Shown here: positions 44,800 through 50,410 of the stretch, one piece after another | Layout: each line of letters starts with the position of its first letter | How positions within the stretch are numbered: the stretch's first letter is position 1 | Assembly (NCBI GenBank): GCA_026415715.1 | Contig: JAOAGO010000008.1 | Coordinates: forward strand, 9,895 to 73,894 | Length of the DNA: 64,000 bases | Reading direction: 5' to 3' | Origin: Chitinophagaceae bacterium | Lineage (GTDB): Bacteria; Bacteroidota; Bacteroidia; Chitinophagales; Chitinophagaceae | Translations under genes and position numbers: made by a program | The notes under the pieces: generated by a model | Database searches by the model: none | What the model saw: only the letters and a program-made list of their open reading frames with translations | Told to the model about the DNA's origin: nothing

Positions 44800-46008
44800 A
44801 TGCCGGGTACGGAACTTTTTGGCGCCGAAGAGCGTAAAGAAATTAACGACGTGCTGGAAACCGGAATTCTTTTCCGCTACAATCATGAGCAACAGCGGAA
44901 AGGAATCTGGAAAGCCAGAGATTTTGAAGAAGAAGTAAAAAAACTGACCGGCGCCCGTTTTGCCCATGCAGTATCCAGCGGGTCAACCGCAGTAGCCACT
45001 GCGCTGGCTGCATCCGGAATCGGTGCGGGAGATAAGGTTATTGTTCCGCCCTTTACCTACATAGCAACCGTAGAAGCAGTGCTGATGCTGGGGGCTTTGC
45101 CCGTTTTTGCCGAAATTGATGAAACGCTTTGCCTGAGCGCTGAAGGTATTGAAAAAGCCGTTACGGCCGATACCAAAGCGGTTTGCCTGGTACACATGTG
45201 CGGCGGTATGGCCCACATGGATGCAATTCTTCCGGTAATTCAAAAACACAATCTGATATTGGTTGAAGACGCCGGACAGGCATTTGGAGCATCGTATCAT
45301 GGTACTCATGTGGGTTTGTTCGGAAAAGCAGGTTGTTATTCTTTTGATTTCTTCAAAATAGCCACTGCCGGCGAGGGGGGTGTGGTTGTTACCAATGACG
45401 AAAAAGTATATAAGCTGGCCGATTCCTATTCCGACCACGGACACGATCATATTGGCACAATCCGCGGCATGGAACAACATCCGGTGTTGGGATTCAACTA
45501 CCGCATCAGCGAATTGCATGCGGCCGTCGGACTTGCACAGACACGAAAAGTACCCTATATCCGATCGGTCAACCGGAAATATAAAAACATGCTCATGGAA
45601 CTGCTGAGCAATACACCGGGTATTTCCTTTGCCAAAGTTCCCGACCCTGATGGCGATTCCGCCACTTTCCTGAATCTGCTGCTGCCCGATCAGCCAACGG
45701 CAGCCCGAACGGTGGAAGCACTGAATGAACACGGAGTGGGAGGCTTCAATTACTGGTTTGTCAATATGTATCATTTCATTAACCAGTGGGATCATCTGAA
45801 GGAAATGCGAACCGCCTCAAAACTTCCCATTGAAATATTCGGAACACCACAGGATTACAGCCAACTGCATTTACCAAAATCACAGGAAGTCATTGGCCGG
45901 TTAATATCCTTTGGCATCCGCTGTACATGGAATGAAGAAGAAGTAAAGACATTAGCCAGGCGAATTTCCGATTGTGTACTAAAAGCCGTTCAGAAAGCCC
46001 ATGTTTAA
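44800..46008 (+). CDS. kdnA: Kdo 8-aminotransferase KdnA (DegT/DnrJ/EryC1/StrS family)
   Basis: 402-aa PLP-dependent sugar aminotransferase. The PLP Lys is in DFFKIATAGEGGVVVTND (near residue 187), with SGSTAVATALAASGIGAGDKV and VEDAGQAFGASYHG upstream. In Shewanella, KdnA transfers an amino group to the 8-oxo form of Kdo to give 8-amino-3,8-dideoxy-octulosonate (Kdo8N). The assignment rests on the aminotransferase motifs plus the adjacent KdnB-like dehydrogenase and the Kdo genes that follow. It overlaps kdnB by 8 bp. Confidence 0.87.
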   Translation: MPGTELFGAEERKEINDVLETGILFRYNHEQQRKGIWKARDFEEEVKKLTGARFAHAVSSGSTAVATALAASGIGAGDKVIVPPFTYIATVEAVLMLGALPVFAEIDETLCLSAEGIEKAVTADTKAVCLVHMCGGMAHMDAILPVIQKHNLILVEDAGQAFGASYHGTHVGLFGKAGCYSFDFFKIATAGEGGVVVTNDEKVYKLADSYSDHGHDHIGTIRGMEQHPVLGFNYRISELHAAVGLAQTRKVPYIRSVNRKYKNMLMELLSNTPGISFAKVPDPDGDSATFLNLLLPDQPTAARTVEALNEHGVGGFNYWFVNMYHFINQWDHLKEMRTASKLPIEIFGTPQDYSQLHLPKSQEVIGRLISFGIRCTWNEEEVKTLARRISDCVLKAVQKAHV

Positions 46009-47080
46009 AAATATCAGAAATATTGAAAAAATATTATTCGGCAGGGGCAGTTACCGGATGCTGAAAGATATAATAGAACCGAACAGAAATCAAAACAACG
46101 GTTTTTTTCTTTTTATAGTCGATCATTTTTTTCACCCGAAAAATCATCATCTCAGCATACCGGCAGAGCCGGAAGATGCAGTGGTTTACATTGACGTAGA
46201 TCCGCACGAACCTACCACAGAGCAGGTTGATCACCTGCGCGATGAGATAAAAGAATCCAAAGGAATACCCGCCGGTGTAATCGGTATTGGTGGCGGAAGC
46301 ATTCTGGATATTGCCAAGGCCGTTTCACTAATGTTTACCAACGAGGGCTCTTCCGCTCAATATCAGGGCCTGAATCTGATTAAAAATCCCGGAGTGTACC
46401 ACGTTGGCGTGCCGACTATTTCCGGAACCGGCGCCGAATGTTCTTCAACCGCAGTATTAACGGGGCCTCAAAAAAAACTGGGAATCAAATGCGAATGGAC
46501 GGTATTTGATCAGGTAATACTCGACCCGGAACTGACTGCTACCGTACCTGCGGAAAAATGGTTTTACACGGGAATGGATACCTACATCCATTGTATTGAA
46601 TCGGAAAAAGGTATCATGAACAATGCATTTAGCCGTGCCTTTGCCGATGAAGCGCTGAAACTTTGCCGGGAAGTTTACCTTGGCGCATCTGCGGGACAAA
46701 CTCCCGAAAATGATGATAAACTTATGGTTGCTTCGTTGATGGGAGGAATGAGTCTTACTTATTCTGAAGTCGGGGTTTGTCATGCTTTGAGTTACGGATT
46801 GTCCAAAATTCTGGGTTATCGTCACGGCTATGCCAACTGTGTGGCGTTTCAGCATCTGAATGATTTTTATCCGGAGGGTGTTTCAGAATTTCAACAAATG
46901 CTTGCAAAACACAAGATACGTCTGCCACAACATCTCAGCCGTGAATGGAGCGAATCGCAGATTCATGCCATGGCTGAAGTGGCTTATAATCTTCCGCACA
47001 TGTGGCATCATGCACTGGGAGATGATTGGAAGAATCAGATTAGTGTGGAATCCGTTACGGCACTTTATAAAAGATTATAA
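46001..47080 (+). CDS. kdnB: 3-deoxy-alpha-D-manno-octulosonate 8-oxidase KdnB (iron-containing alcohol dehydrogenase family)
   Basis: 359 aa. Iron-ADH signatures are GIGGGSILDIAKAVSLM (NAD-binding glycine motif near residue 97), TISGTGAECSSTAVL and metal ligands Asp and His in MDTYIHCIES, HALSYGLSKILGYRHG. KdnB oxidises the C8 hydroxyl of Kdo to the aldehyde, the substrate of KdnA. Position between kdnA and kdsA supports this over a general alcohol dehydrogenase. The stop overlaps the kdsA start (TAATG). Confidence 0.87.
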   Translation: MFKNIRNIEKILFGRGSYRMLKDIIEPNRNQNNGFFLFIVDHFFHPKNHHLSIPAEPEDAVVYIDVDPHEPTTEQVDHLRDEIKESKGIPAGVIGIGGGSILDIAKAVSLMFTNEGSSAQYQGLNLIKNPGVYHVGVPTISGTGAECSSTAVLTGPQKKLGIKCEWTVFDQVILDPELTATVPAEKWFYTGMDTYIHCIESEKGIMNNAFSRAFADEALKLCREVYLGASAGQTPENDDKLMVASLMGGMSLTYSEVGVCHALSYGLSKILGYRHGYANCVAFQHLNDFYPEGVSEFQQMLAKHKIRLPQHLSREWSESQIHAMAEVAYNLPHMWHHALGDDWKNQISVESVTALYKRL

Positions 47081-47931
47081 TGAGCAAAAAGAAAGTACAA
47101 GTCGGTCCTATTGTTTGCGGTGACGATACGCTGTTCCTGATTTCAGGGCCGTGCGTAATTGAAGACGAAACGGTAATGATGGAAACTGCCGAACACTTAA
47201 AGAAAGTTTCTGAAACGCTAAAGATTCCGGTTATTTTTAAATCTTCTTTTTCAAAAGACAACCGGAGCAGTGTTTCTTATTACAGAGGGCCGGGACTGGA
47301 AGAAGGACTGAAAATGCTGAACCGCATCAAAAAAGAATTCGGATTTCCGGTGTTAACCGATATTCATTATCCTCAGCAGGCAAAACCGGTAGCAGAAGTT
47401 TGTGATGTAATTCAGATACCGGCCTATTTGTGCATGCAAACAGAGCTGATGGAAGCGGCTGCCCGAACCGGTAAAGTGATCAACATAAAACACGGACAGT
47501 TTCTGGCGCCCGAAAACATGAAACATCCCGTAAAAAAATGCGAAGATTCCGGCAATGACAGAATCATTGTAACGGAAAGAGGTTATACCATGGGGTACAA
47601 TGACCTGGTGGTGGATCCGCGAAGCTTTTATCATTTGGGGAAATTAGGTTATCCTGTTGTTTTTGATATTACGCATTCCATTCGGAAATACGGAATACCC
47701 AGTGCAGACAGTCGCGGCGGCGCCCGGGAATATCTACCGGTACTAAGCAGGGCAGGCGTGGCCGCCGGAGTGGATGGTGTATTTATTGAAACACACCCTG
47801 CGCCCGAAAAAGCGCTTTGCGATGCGGCAAGCCAGCTTTGCGTTTATGACCTGGAAGAATTTCTGAAACCCGTTCTGGAAATTCATGCCGTGGAAGTAAA
47901 ATACCGGAATGCCGGATCATCTTACATTTGA
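47080..47931 (+). CDS. kdsA: 3-deoxy-8-phosphooctulonate synthase, metal-dependent type
   Basis: 283-aa aldolase condensing D-arabinose 5-phosphate with phosphoenolpyruvate to Kdo 8-phosphate. Clear motifs: SGPCVIEDE, FKSSFSKDNRSS, YRGPGLEEGLKML, IKHGQFLAPENM and VVFDITHSIRKYG. The Cys in SGPC replaces the Asn of the metal-free E. coli enzyme, and the other metal ligands (His in DITHS, Glu in FIETHP, Asp in ALCDAAS) are present, so this is the metallo form known from Aquifex. It is the third gene of the operon, one base overlapping kdnB. Confidence 0.95.
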   Translation: MSKKKVQVGPIVCGDDTLFLISGPCVIEDETVMMETAEHLKKVSETLKIPVIFKSSFSKDNRSSVSYYRGPGLEEGLKMLNRIKKEFGFPVLTDIHYPQQAKPVAEVCDVIQIPAYLCMQTELMEAAARTGKVINIKHGQFLAPENMKHPVKKCEDSGNDRIIVTERGYTMGYNDLVVDPRSFYHLGKLGYPVVFDITHSIRKYGIPSADSRGGAREYLPVLSRAGVAAGVDGVFIETHPAPEKALCDAASQLCVYDLEEFLKPVLEIHAVEVKYRNAGSSYI

Positions 47932-47951
47932 TAAAATTTTAAACGAGAAAT

Positions 47952-48959
47952 ATGGAACTCTATCTGGATTCAGCCAACCTGCAGGAAATTGAAGAAGGCT
48001 TTAAACTTGGATTTTTAGACGGACTGACGACTACACCTACCTTTATGCAACGGGAAGGAATTACCGATATTGACGGGGTAATTGTAAAACTTTCCCGCAT
48101 GGTTCCCGTACTTCAGATTGAAGCGCTGGGAAATACAGCCGAAGAAATTGTTGCGGAAGCCAAAAGGCAACTGGCGCTGGGATTGAATCCGGAAAAAACG
48201 GTGTTTAAAATTCCGGTCTCGCTGGAAGGGGTTCGTGCCTGTAAATTGTTACGTAACGAAGGGCTTTTGGTGAATGTTCATCTGGTATATACTTTACAGC
48301 AGGCCTATATGGCCATGCATGCGGGAGCCAACTATGTTTGTCCGCTAGTGGGCAGGCTTCAGGATCAGGGGCATGATGCGCTGGCATTGATTGAACAGTG
48401 CGTAAAAGCCGTAGAACGTTATCATTATCCTACCAAAATTATGTTCAGCTCCGTGCGGCATGTGGAACATGTACGAAATGCCATCAATCTGGGCGTACAT
48501 ACGGTAACGGTACCGATGAAAGTATTAAAAGCACTCACGGATAATAATCTCACCTATCTGGGTACGGAACAATTTTTCCGCGATAACCGATTGATGACGG
48601 TAAAAGTAAAAGATATTATCAACGGAATTAATCCCCTGGTTATCGAAAATACTTCTTTAAAAGATGCCATCATAAAAATGACGGAATACGGATTCGGCGC
48701 CGTAACCGTTGTAACTCAGGAGGGCAACATCAAAGGCGTATTTACCGATGGTGACCTTCGCCGCCTGCTGCAAAAAGAAGGAGAACATATTCTGGACAGA
48801 CAAATAGGGTCTTTAACATTCAAAACACCCATCACCATAGATTCAGACGCTTACCTTAACGAAGCCGTTACGGTTTTCAAACGAACCAATGTAGATACAC
48901 TTCTGGTGACAGAAAACGGAAAACCGGTAGGCATGCTTGATATTCAGGATCTGAACTGA
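47952..48959 (+). CDS. Transaldolase/FSA-like domain fused to a KdsD-like CBS pair
   Basis: 335 aa. Residues 1-215 form a small transaldolase domain like fructose-6-phosphate aldolase: LYLDSANL with Asp6, Schiff-base Lys86 in VFKIPVSLEG, AGANYVCPLVGRLQDQG, and MFSSVRH. Three residues differ from E. coli FsaA by eye alignment: Asn28 is Thr (TTTP), Thr109 is His (NVHLVYT), and Tyr131 is Leu (CPLVGR). Residues 222-335 are two CBS motifs with GVFTDGDLRRLL and a terminal GMLDIQDLN, the pattern at the end of KdsD arabinose-5-phosphate isomerases. It occupies the operon slot between kdsA and kdsC where KdsD is expected. I infer it supplies or controls arabinose 5-phosphate; a purely regulatory protein is the alternative. 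Confidence 0.82.
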   Translation: MELYLDSANLQEIEEGFKLGFLDGLTTTPTFMQREGITDIDGVIVKLSRMVPVLQIEALGNTAEEIVAEAKRQLALGLNPEKTVFKIPVSLEGVRACKLLRNEGLLVNVHLVYTLQQAYMAMHAGANYVCPLVGRLQDQGHDALALIEQCVKAVERYHYPTKIMFSSVRHVEHVRNAINLGVHTVTVPMKVLKALTDNNLTYLGTEQFFRDNRLMTVKVKDIINGINPLVIENTSLKDAIIKMTEYGFGAVTVVTQEGNIKGVFTDGDLRRLLQKEGEHILDRQIGSLTFKTPITIDSDAYLNEAVTVFKRTNVDTLLVTENGKPVGMLDIQDLN

Positions 48960-48965
48960 TTGCCG

Positions 48966-49673
48966 ATGAACTCTACTCATCATTTTTCAAATATTCCGTT
49001 TTCCGGACGTTTTCTCAGTTCGGCAGATGGCATTAAAAAAAAATTTAAAAAAATAAAGGCTTTTTTGTATGATTGGGACGGTGTATTTAATGACGGCACG
49101 AAAAACGCAGACGGCAGCCCTTTCAGTGAAGTAGATTCCATGGGGACCAACTTATTGCGTTATGCCTTATTTCTTGATGAGAAAAAAGTTGCTCCCGCCG
49201 CTATCATTACCGGAGTAAATAATCATACAGCGCTTCGCTTTGCTCAACGGGAACATTTTCAGGCCGTTTATTTTGATATAAAAAATAAAACGGTGGCATT
49301 TCGGCATTTTCTTGAATTTCATAAACTGCAAGCAGCTGAAGTTGTTTATTTTTTTGATGATGTGGTGGATCTTGACATAGCCCGTTATGCAGGGCTTCGT
49401 ATTTTTATTCCTCATCCGGCTACTCACCTGCTTACAGAATATGTCCGACGTAACGGCCTGGCAGATTATATTTGTTTCTTTTCCGGCGGACAACATGCCG
49501 TTCGGGAAGCTGCCGACCTGCTTTTATATCTTTCCGGGTATTATGAACAGATAATACAGGAGCGTTCCGCCTTTTCCAAACAATACGAAACGTATCTGAC
49601 AGAAAGAAAAACAATTGAGACAAAAATATTTCATGCACCTTCCGAAACCGGAATAAAAGAGTTGGCTTTATGA
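48966..49673 (+). CDS. kdsC: KdsC-like HAD phosphatase (Kdo 8-phosphate phosphatase), divergent
   Basis: 235 aa. The HAD nucleophile motif is FLYDWDGVFNDGTKN (Asp36 and Asp38), motif II Thr is in AAIITGVNN, the Lys is in FDIKNKTV and the acidic motif IV is YFFDDVVDLDIA. Usual KdsC proteins are about 165-190 aa with GDDxNDLP in motif IV; here the Gly is Phe and there are extra residues at both ends (about 30 N-terminal, 50 C-terminal). Operon position supports the role. The frame begins at a TTG (48960), but ATG 48966 is preferred. It overlaps kdsB by 4 bp (ATGA). Confidence 0.78.
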   Translation: MNSTHHFSNIPFSGRFLSSADGIKKKFKKIKAFLYDWDGVFNDGTKNADGSPFSEVDSMGTNLLRYALFLDEKKVAPAAIITGVNNHTALRFAQREHFQAVYFDIKNKTVAFRHFLEFHKLQAAEVVYFFDDVVDLDIARYAGLRIFIPHPATHLLTEYVRRNGLADYICFFSGGQHAVREAADLLLYLSGYYEQIIQERSAFSKQYETYLTERKTIETKIFHAPSETGIKELAL

Positions 49674-50410
49674 TTGCCGGAATCATTCCTGCCCGTTATG
49701 CGTCCACCCGGTTTCCGGGTAAGCCTTTAATTGATATAAAGGGCAAATCCATGATCCGACGGGTATATGAACAGGCAATAAAGGCGGAAAGTTTGTCGTT
49801 TGTTGCCGTAGCCACCGACGATGAACGAATTTATCAGCATGTCAAATCGTGGGGTGGGCATGTTATCATGACTTCTGCACAGCATCAGAGCGGAACGGAA
49901 CGATGCCTTGAAGCCATAAAAAAAGCCGAAGGGAATTTTGAATATATCATAAACATTCAGGGCGATGAACCTTTACTGAATCCTGAACAAATTAACCAAT
50001 TGGCTGCCGCACTGAAGTCAGATTCCGTAGAAATTGCCACGCAAATAAAAAAAGCAGAGCGGTATGAATGGCTTGCCAACCCCGGCGAGGTGAAGGTAGT
50101 CATCAATTCCCGTAAAGAAGCGCTTTATTTCAGCCGTAATATTATTCCTTATGTAAAAGATATTCCTGAAAACGAATGGCACAAGGCATTTACGTTTTTC
50201 CGTCATGTGGGCCTCTACGCTTACCGGAAAGACATCCTGGAACAAATTGCCAGTCTCCCTGCTTCTCCCCTGGAAAAAGCCGAATCGCTTGAGCAGTTGC
50301 GCTGGCTGGAAAATGGATACCGGATTTTATGTGTGGAAACAGAATATGAAAGTCTTTGTGTAGATACGCCGGAAGATTTTGAAAGAATTCTTCCATTGAT
50401 AAAAGAATAA
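49670..50410 (+). CDS. kdsB: 3-deoxy-manno-octulosonate cytidylyltransferase
   Basis: 246-aa CMP-Kdo synthetase that activates Kdo with CTP before transfer to lipid A. The start IAGIIPARYASTRFPGKPLI is canonical; TDDERIYQH, SGTERCLEAI and INIQGDEPLL carry the CTP- and Mg2+-binding residues, and YAYRKDILEQIASLP follows. It is the last gene of the operon. Whether this enzyme handles Kdo, Kdo8N or both cannot be seen; Shewanella KdsB prefers Kdo8N. Confidence 0.95.
   Translation: MIAGIIPARYASTRFPGKPLIDIKGKSMIRRVYEQAIKAESLSFVAVATDDERIYQHVKSWGGHVIMTSAQHQSGTERCLEAIKKAEGNFEYIINIQGDEPLLNPEQINQLAAALKSDSVEIATQIKKAERYEWLANPGEVKVVINSRKEALYFSRNIIPYVKDIPENEWHKAFTFFRHVGLYAYRKDILEQIASLPASPLEKAESLEQLRWLENGYRILCVETEYESLCVDTPEDFERILPLIKE

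Follow-up and report, generated by a model that had tools for sequence, protein, structure and literature searches.

We propose that a fusion gene in the 64,000-nucleotide stretch of DNA analysed here (the window), which couples a TalC/FSA-type transaldolase domain to a KdsD-type pair of CBS motifs, replaces the arabinose 5-phosphate (A5P) isomerase KdsD and feeds A5P to the neighbouring KdsA via a Schiff base on Lys86; this is the best overall explanation of the observations, and its probability is put at roughly 0.75. Most Gram-negative bacteria require Kdo, whose precursor A5P is, in the textbook account, made by SIS-type isomerases. The data point to a second, undescribed start of the Kdo pathway in many Bacteroidota, wherein KdsD is lacking and an unrelated aldolase-like enzyme sits on a KdsD-type regulatory half. 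The initial annotation had considered the gene either an alternative first step of Kdo synthesis or a regulatory pseudo-enzyme. The replacement of KdsD is strongly backed by the genome evidence, namely a genome in which no KdsD was found, the near-perfect mutual exclusion of the two enzymes, the loss of kdsD from its site and a reciprocal gene swap. The pseudo-enzyme option is disfavoured for this protein.

A transaldolase-type domain and a KdsD-type CBS pair in a Kdo operon

The fusion gene (47952..48959, + strand) starts with ATG, has no internal stop and encodes 335 residues, and its assignment is based on Pfam, NCBIfam, its homologues and an AF2 model. Residues 1-211 (47952..48584, +) form the catalytic TAL/FSA domain, as judged by residue comparison with plain TalC and by alignment to 3s0c, and residues 212-335 (48585..48956, +) form the CBS pair. 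Pfam TAL_FSA matched residues 3-201 with 123.5 bits against a cut-off of 27 (E 1.4e-35), which places the first half in this family, and the two CBS stretches reached 62 bits (E 6.9e-17); no Pfam match to a SIS domain was found in the fusion, and the match to TIGR00393 was confined to the CBS part (residues 215-329). The top NCBIfam match of the first half was fsa_talC_mipB (TIGR00875), which with 165.8 bits fell short of the model's 245.95 cut-off, and the leading CBS-type models of the second half were KpsF (TIGR00393, 65.7 bits), followed by KdsD and GutQ. In a PDB sequence search the first half came closest to TalC-type transaldolases (1vpx, E 3.4e-37); for the second half, the closest match was to an A5P isomerase, in its CBS pair (4o9k, E 6.1e-16).

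An AF2 model of the fusion built from 46 sequences had a mean pLDDT of 91.0 and a pTM of 0.66, and VIA-align superposed modelled residues 1-218 on the Thermoplasma acidophilum transaldolase 3s0c with Z 29.5 and rmsd 1.5 over 215 residues; such fold searches do not separate an aldolase from an epimerase. Modelled by itself, the CBS pair gave a pLDDT of 88.9, and its nearest Foldseek matches were the CBS pairs of the putative A5P isomerases 3k2v and 4o9k, the latter of which we take to have CMP-Kdo as its ligand. The kinship of the CBS part with KdsD was judged from profile, PDB sequence and fold matches, and NCBIfam, the PDB sequences and Foldseek agree on a KdsD-type C-terminal pair. Both halves are as the initial annotation had described them, a KdsD-like CBS half behind an FSA/transaldolase half that keeps Asp6 and Lys86. 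Because the TAL+CBS architecture is shared by 110 distinct full-length homologues, the window's among them, the fusion is no assembly accident.

The gene lies in the order kdnA-kdnB-kdsA-fusion-kdsC-kdsB, all on the + strand. The Kdo8N transaminase gene kdnA (44800..46008) is assigned from its top PDB match, 5k8b, 8-amino-3,8-dideoxy-alpha-D-manno-octulosonate transaminase (445.6 bits), and the Kdo 8-oxidase gene kdnB (46001..47080) from 5k8c, 3-deoxy-alpha-D-manno-octulosonate 8-oxidase (402.5 bits), which came second by 0.2 bits to the iron-containing alcohol dehydrogenase 3rf7 (402.7). The Kdo8P synthase gene kdsA (47080..47931), placed by tree in a fusion-associated clade, exceeded the cut-off of TIGR01362 (338.5 bits against 314), and the CMP-Kdo synthetase gene kdsB (49670..50410) that of TIGR00466 (229.5 bits against 155.2). 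The KdsC-like HAD phosphatase gene (48966..49673, with an alternative TTG start at 48960) scored 58.2 bits, below the cut-off of 208, with the KdsC model PRK09484 and carries a DWDGVFNDG motif. Thus the placement given at the start, between kdsA and kdsC, is correct, kdsA being directly upstream and the KdsC-like gene directly downstream. The combination of kdnA and kdnB with Kdo genes is that of a CMP-Kdo8N operon and, since close relatives of KdnA and KdnB are encoded upstream, the operon should, judging by sequence, yield Kdo8N, with CMP-Kdo8N as the end product. The fusion does not depend on Kdo8N for its association with the Kdo genes, because in another genome (G146) the 19.5 kb that were read contain kdsA-fusion-kdsC but neither kdnA nor kdnB.

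Distribution of the fusion and of KdsD

The genome from which the window comes (2.63 Mb in 96 contigs, completeness 100, contamination 0.21) yielded no A5P isomerase in a whole-genome search, the matches to TIGR00393 being CBS parts only, and PF01380 found MurQ, GmhA and a frame of 616 residues that contains two SIS domains and is presumably GlmS (names by reading of the matches). The lack of a SIS isomerase, noted at first for the window, therefore extends to the whole genome, and the genome-wide search for KdsD/KpsF proposed in the initial annotation returned none. A hidden KdsD elsewhere in this genome was ruled out by the same two models.

Genomes were sampled from the window's phylum together with control genomes, and other phyla were covered by a two-pattern scan of one genome per species over 84,980 species, from which the best 80 of 490 related places were taken. 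Bacteroidota was the titled phylum of 78 of these 80, the other two being L061 and L112. The former (JANLJF010000062.1), titled Azovibrio restrictus, a betaproteobacterium, holds a complete six-gene operon with a fusion 77% identical, and is probably a misbinned contig. Among the neighbours in the best 80 of 490 loci, many of them on short contigs, the strongly diverged KdsC-like HAD gene was the commonest (60), with kdsB in 54, kdsA in 46, kdnB in 40 and kdnA in 39. At least one of kdsA, kdsC and kdsB was present in 70 of these 80 loci, and none of the three in 10 within the stretch read; the homologues of the best-scoring set are thus mostly found inside Kdo operons, where the initial annotation had expected them. 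In an even draw of the phylum a full-length fusion was found in 3 of 148 genomes, and in the class sample a fusion match at E 1e-80 or better in 56 of 295, one of which (G452) is a fragment.

In the same class sample, KdsD matched at E 1e-50 or better in 156 genomes (154 over the cut-off) and KdsA in 211 (202 over the cut-off). The 211 genomes with KdsA comprise 147 with KdsD only, 48 with the fusion only, 2 with both and 14 with neither, so that KdsD and the fusion exclude each other almost perfectly. Both genomes with the two enzymes (G425 and G447) belong to one genus of family f66. Ten of the 14 with neither carry a CBS-less SIS isomerase (E 4.8e-43 to 4.3e-49), and another (G210) has a fusion fragment (model residues 240-334, in a 102-residue frame on contig C132) and a partial fusion-type kdsA on a different contig, which suggests a broken assembly; this leaves G438 (98% complete), G351 (80%) and G429 (60%) as KdsA genomes with neither enzyme. 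Fisher's test on the exclusion gave 3e-32, a value that ignores relatedness, and therefore a count by families was made: six families (f1, f8, f37, f43, f67 and f92) contain fusion-only as well as KdsD-only species, with an overlap of 0.

When TIGR00393 was applied at E 1e-10 to all 56 fusion genomes of the class sample, it returned full-length KdsD in 2, a CBS-less SIS isomerase in 1 and CBS parts in the rest. A CBS-less KpsF in fusion genomes was accordingly rejected, since at this threshold only that one of 56 (G329) has it and is itself without a KdsA match. The genomes of 50 named loci from the best 80 of 490 gave a similar picture, with KdsD over the cut-off in 3 and CBS parts only in 47; two of the 3 match the coordinates of G425 and G447, and the third (G161) is new.

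The replacement can also be followed at conserved sites, where genes outside the Kdo pathway were named by reading of their sequences. A genome of the window's genus (G115) shares with the window a neighbourhood of acyl-CoA dehydrogenase, shikimate kinase, ftsK, lolA-like and NAD-epimerase genes, and between the last two a lone kdsA of the other type (44% identical) replaces the six-gene cassette. The site of this lone kdsA (L179) is the one occupied in the window by the Kdo8N cassette (44800-50410). In G115 kdsD adjoins recQ, and the order recQ-kdsD-manC is found in G126 and G033, of the window's family and without the fusion; three fusion genomes (G000, G091 and G146) have recQ-manC without kdsD, and a tblastn search between these two genes with the KdsD of G115 detected no remnants: its matches spanned 7-12 residues, with E values of 0.79 and above. 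One genome with both enzymes, G425, has kept recQ-kdsD. The reciprocal case is G458, a genome in one contig, in which kdnA, kdnB, a fusion-type kdsA (71% identical), kdsC and kdsB lie together and the fusion alone is missing: the kdsA and kdsC frames are separated by 94 bases, kdsD stands beside recQ, and no full-length fusion was found elsewhere in that genome. A member of the same family (G414) has the fusion, no kdsD at recQ and no kdsA within the 18 kb read around the fusion. The simplest reading of these swaps is that the fusion and KdsD supply the same compound. Counting against KdsD replacement are the three genomes that keep both enzymes, the 10 of the 80 best-scoring loci without kdsA, kdsC or kdsB in the stretch read, and the three KdsA genomes with neither.

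Active site, proposed reaction and alternatives

A full-length, stop-free match was given by 130 loci, some of which are the same gene, and these reduced to 115 distinct sequences, 110 of them in the main set; the active-site set covers 45 of the 56 fusion genomes of the class sample. Asp6, Thr26, Thr27, Thr28, Glu57, Lys86, Asn108, His110, Cys130, Leu132, Arg135, Ser166, Ser167 and Arg169 are identical in all 110 fusions. Plain TalC (n=28: the TalC of the window's own genome and the 27 top-scoring loci without the fusion from the search of the phylum) has Asp6, Glu57, Lys86, Asn108, Arg135, Ser167 and Arg169 in common with them in 28/28, and in every case has Asn28, Thr110, Ser130, Phe132 and Ala166 where the fusions have Thr28, His110, Cys130, Leu132 and Ser166. 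Therefore the Schiff-base machinery and the phosphate site (roles that we presume for Arg135, Ser167 and Arg169) have been retained; the pocket has been remodelled and is invariant among the fusions. In other words, the Schiff-base lysine and catalytic Asp that mark the TalC/FSA family are invariant, and the Asn28/Thr110/Phe132 pattern of F6P aldolases and transaldolases proper is absent from the fusion; the three pocket replacements by Thr, His and Leu noticed in the initial annotation are real, against Asn, Thr and Phe in plain TalC. Positions 28, 110 and 132 presumably equal Asn28, Thr109 and Tyr131 of FsaA, and we likewise assume the functions of the corresponding TalB residues (Asn35, Ser176, Glu96, Thr156, Phe178, Arg181, Ser226 and Arg228).

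We propose that the transaldolase-type domain would act through a Schiff base on Lys86, the participation of which in catalysis is highly probable. The phosphate site and Lys86 would be spaced for a phosphosugar whose phosphate-bearing carbon lies four carbons beyond the imine carbon, a spacing that would fit fructose 6-phosphate counted from C2 and A5P counted from C1. A5P is fructose 6-phosphate without C1, the remaining centres having the same configuration, and a Lys86 imine at C1 of A5P would for this reason place the phosphate as in fructose 6-phosphate; ribulose 5-phosphate would fall one carbon short of the phosphate site, because its carbonyl is at C2. By its entry title, PDB 3upb is a F. 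tularensis transaldolase covalently bound to arabinose-5-P. In the key step, a Lys86-bound glycolaldehyde enamine would add to glyceraldehyde 3-phosphate and form the C2-C3 bond of A5P, and such an aldol bond step is on balance the favoured chemistry. The glycolaldehyde unit might be free, as for an aldolase, or might come from ribose 5-phosphate (R5P) by cleavage and re-addition on the enzyme, as for a 2-epimerase. The CBS pair would probably mediate feedback by a CMP-sugar, and from its kinship with the KdsD type there is about an even chance that its ligand is a compound from late in the pathway, for example CMP-Kdo or CMP-Kdo8N.

According to the accessible text of the reports, FsaA and FsaB join glycolaldehyde and glyceraldehyde 3-phosphate to A5P (PMC6298115), FsaA is reported to form A5P in this way both in vitro and inside engineered E. 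coli cells (PMC6298115, PMC9947464), and from the same two pieces FsaA gives A5P only, TalB F178Y both A5P and R5P (PMC9947464). These aldol reports, together with the geometry of A5P and fructose 6-phosphate, leave two routes with one shared bond step, each of which we regard as possible and hold only tentatively. One is a R5P 2-epimerase, in which R5P would be bound as a C1 imine on Lys86 and turned into A5P with no need for free glycolaldehyde, either by cleaving and re-forming the C2-C3 bond or by removal and return of the C2 proton by His110 and Glu57. This pair is fixed in all fusions where plain TalC has Thr and Glu, the aldose register would suit the phosphate site, and the two products of TalB F178Y reported in PMC9947464 imply that the scaffold can reach both epimers; however, the 2S,3R configuration that the accessible part of PMC8208507 gives for the product of TalB F178Y/Fsa from glycolaldehyde and erythrose 4-phosphate does not favour R5P.

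The other route, proposed in the initial annotation, is an aldolase working on free glycolaldehyde and glyceraldehyde 3-phosphate, for which FsaA provides the precedent and with which the relation of A5P to fructose 6-phosphate agrees. The residues that we take to hold the hydroxyls of the donor are among those replaced (N28T and S130C). Against it, no source of glycolaldehyde is evident within the operon, and folate synthesis, the known source, looks too small for the large demand of Kdo synthesis. In addition, the affinity of FsaA for glycolaldehyde is described in the accessible text of PMC9947464 as insufficient for flux in vivo.

The partner enzyme bears on whether A5P is the product at all. 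For a KdsA tree, 65 sequences from fusion-genome loci were thinned to 22, the window's included, and set beside 17 from genomes with SIS isomerases (16 with KdsD; G292 with a CBS-less one). Of the 22, 21 form one clade, and the remaining one (L217), which the fusion genome G335 carries as its second kdsA, groups with the 17; in G300, too, one of two kdsA copies is of the other type. The fusion clade has CMQ for CRQ and KHGQ for KKGQ (M and H in 21/21 against R and K in 17/17), and KDNR for KANR (D in 20/20 filled rows against A in 17/17), differences that lie near what we take to be the A5P/sugar site. The window's KdsA (47080-47931) and those at L215, L216 and L221 are in this separate clade with the fixed changes, and the complete genome G458 combines the clade with KdsD. 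Because of the fixed changes, the substrate of the fusion-associated KdsA could differ, and the fusion might then make another phosphosugar; this is improbable, since G458 has the same KdsA clade, operon and partners with KdsD and without the fusion, and since KdsA and KdsB score above their curated thresholds and the PDB matches of KdnA and KdnB include solved Kdo8N enzymes. A5P thus remains, very probably, the product of the fusion.

The reading as a regulatory pseudo-enzyme, with a catalytically dead TAL half and a CBS half that senses CMP-Kdo, fits a side branch. In family f35, Arg or Ser replaces Lys86 in 5/5 distinct copies and most of the active site has gone, Glu57 being retained in all five; their CBS pair is intact, and no KdsA match at E 1e-50 was found in the five genomes. 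The losses of KdsA and of the catalytic lysine therefore coincide, and these copies are possibly CBS sensors with a new role. At their loci (L158, L159, L160, L161 and L162) the fusion gene immediately follows a frame of 571-616 residues, the start of which looks similar in 4/5. The CBS-less KpsF-type SIS gene of G329, a member of this degenerate branch with no KdsA match, lies at L197 (G329:C67:77789-78247). Only one further fusion genome is without a KdsA match, G332, which has an intact active site and is 67% complete. For the window's protein, a dead TAL half is very unlikely: the site is intact in the other 110 distinct copies, the TAL half is the more conserved (96/211 columns at least 98% identical, against 24/124 in the CBS half), and the KdsA of 48 class-sample genomes would be left without a known A5P source. 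An ordinary transaldolase sitting in the operon by chance, suggested by the fold and the Schiff-base lysine, is hardly credible given the fixed rewiring at 28, 110, 130, 132 and 166, the mutual exclusion with KdsD and a separate plain TalC-type gene in the genome (C55), owing to which the fusion is not needed in that role.

Based on the exclusion, the swaps, the conserved site and the loss of Lys86 in f35, the fusion very probably supplies A5P to KdsA through Lys86. More broadly, it is probable that a dedicated natural Schiff-base former of A5P, whether aldolase or R5P 2-epimerase, has displaced KdsD repeatedly across Bacteroidota, retaining a CBS pair of KdsD type for feedback sensing of the CMP-sugar and accompanied by a KdsA lineage of its own.

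Comparison with known systems

We know of no biochemistry on the fusion. No published transaldolase-CBS fusion or alternative A5P source was found in the open-access literature searched, which is no proof of absence in print, because most subscription journals lay outside that scope. If the proposal is true, the pathway annotation of many Bacteroidota would change and their apparent lack of the first Kdo step would be explained; a natural A5P aldolase or epimerase would be useful to synthetic glycolaldehyde pathways, which have employed FsaA and a TalB mutant; and the fusion would be a clear case of a catalytic domain exchanged in front of a retained regulatory domain.

The fusion resembles KdsD/KpsF/GutQ, the A5P isomerases made of a SIS domain and a CBS pair, in the type of its CBS motifs, in its place in the Kdo pathway and in its complementary distribution, but lacks the SIS domain and has a transaldolase-type barrel as its catalytic half. 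With the TalC-type transaldolases and F6P aldolases (FsaA, TM0295 and T. acidophilum Tal) it shares the fold, Asp6, Glu57, Lys86, Asn108 and the phosphate site, whereas it differs by the five substituted pocket positions, by the added C-terminal CBS pair and by a score well under the family cut-off. The idea of retro-aldol cleavage and re-addition is that of aldolase-fold epimerases such as L-ribulose-5-phosphate 4-epimerase, which, unlike the fusion, have a metal-dependent class II fold and no Schiff base. The proposed bond between glycolaldehyde and glyceraldehyde 3-phosphate is the one formed in the engineered A5P routes with FsaA and TalB F178Y, as the accessible text of PMC6298115 and PMC9947464 describes them; however, those are activities recruited for synthetic pathways, and the fusion would be a dedicated natural enzyme.
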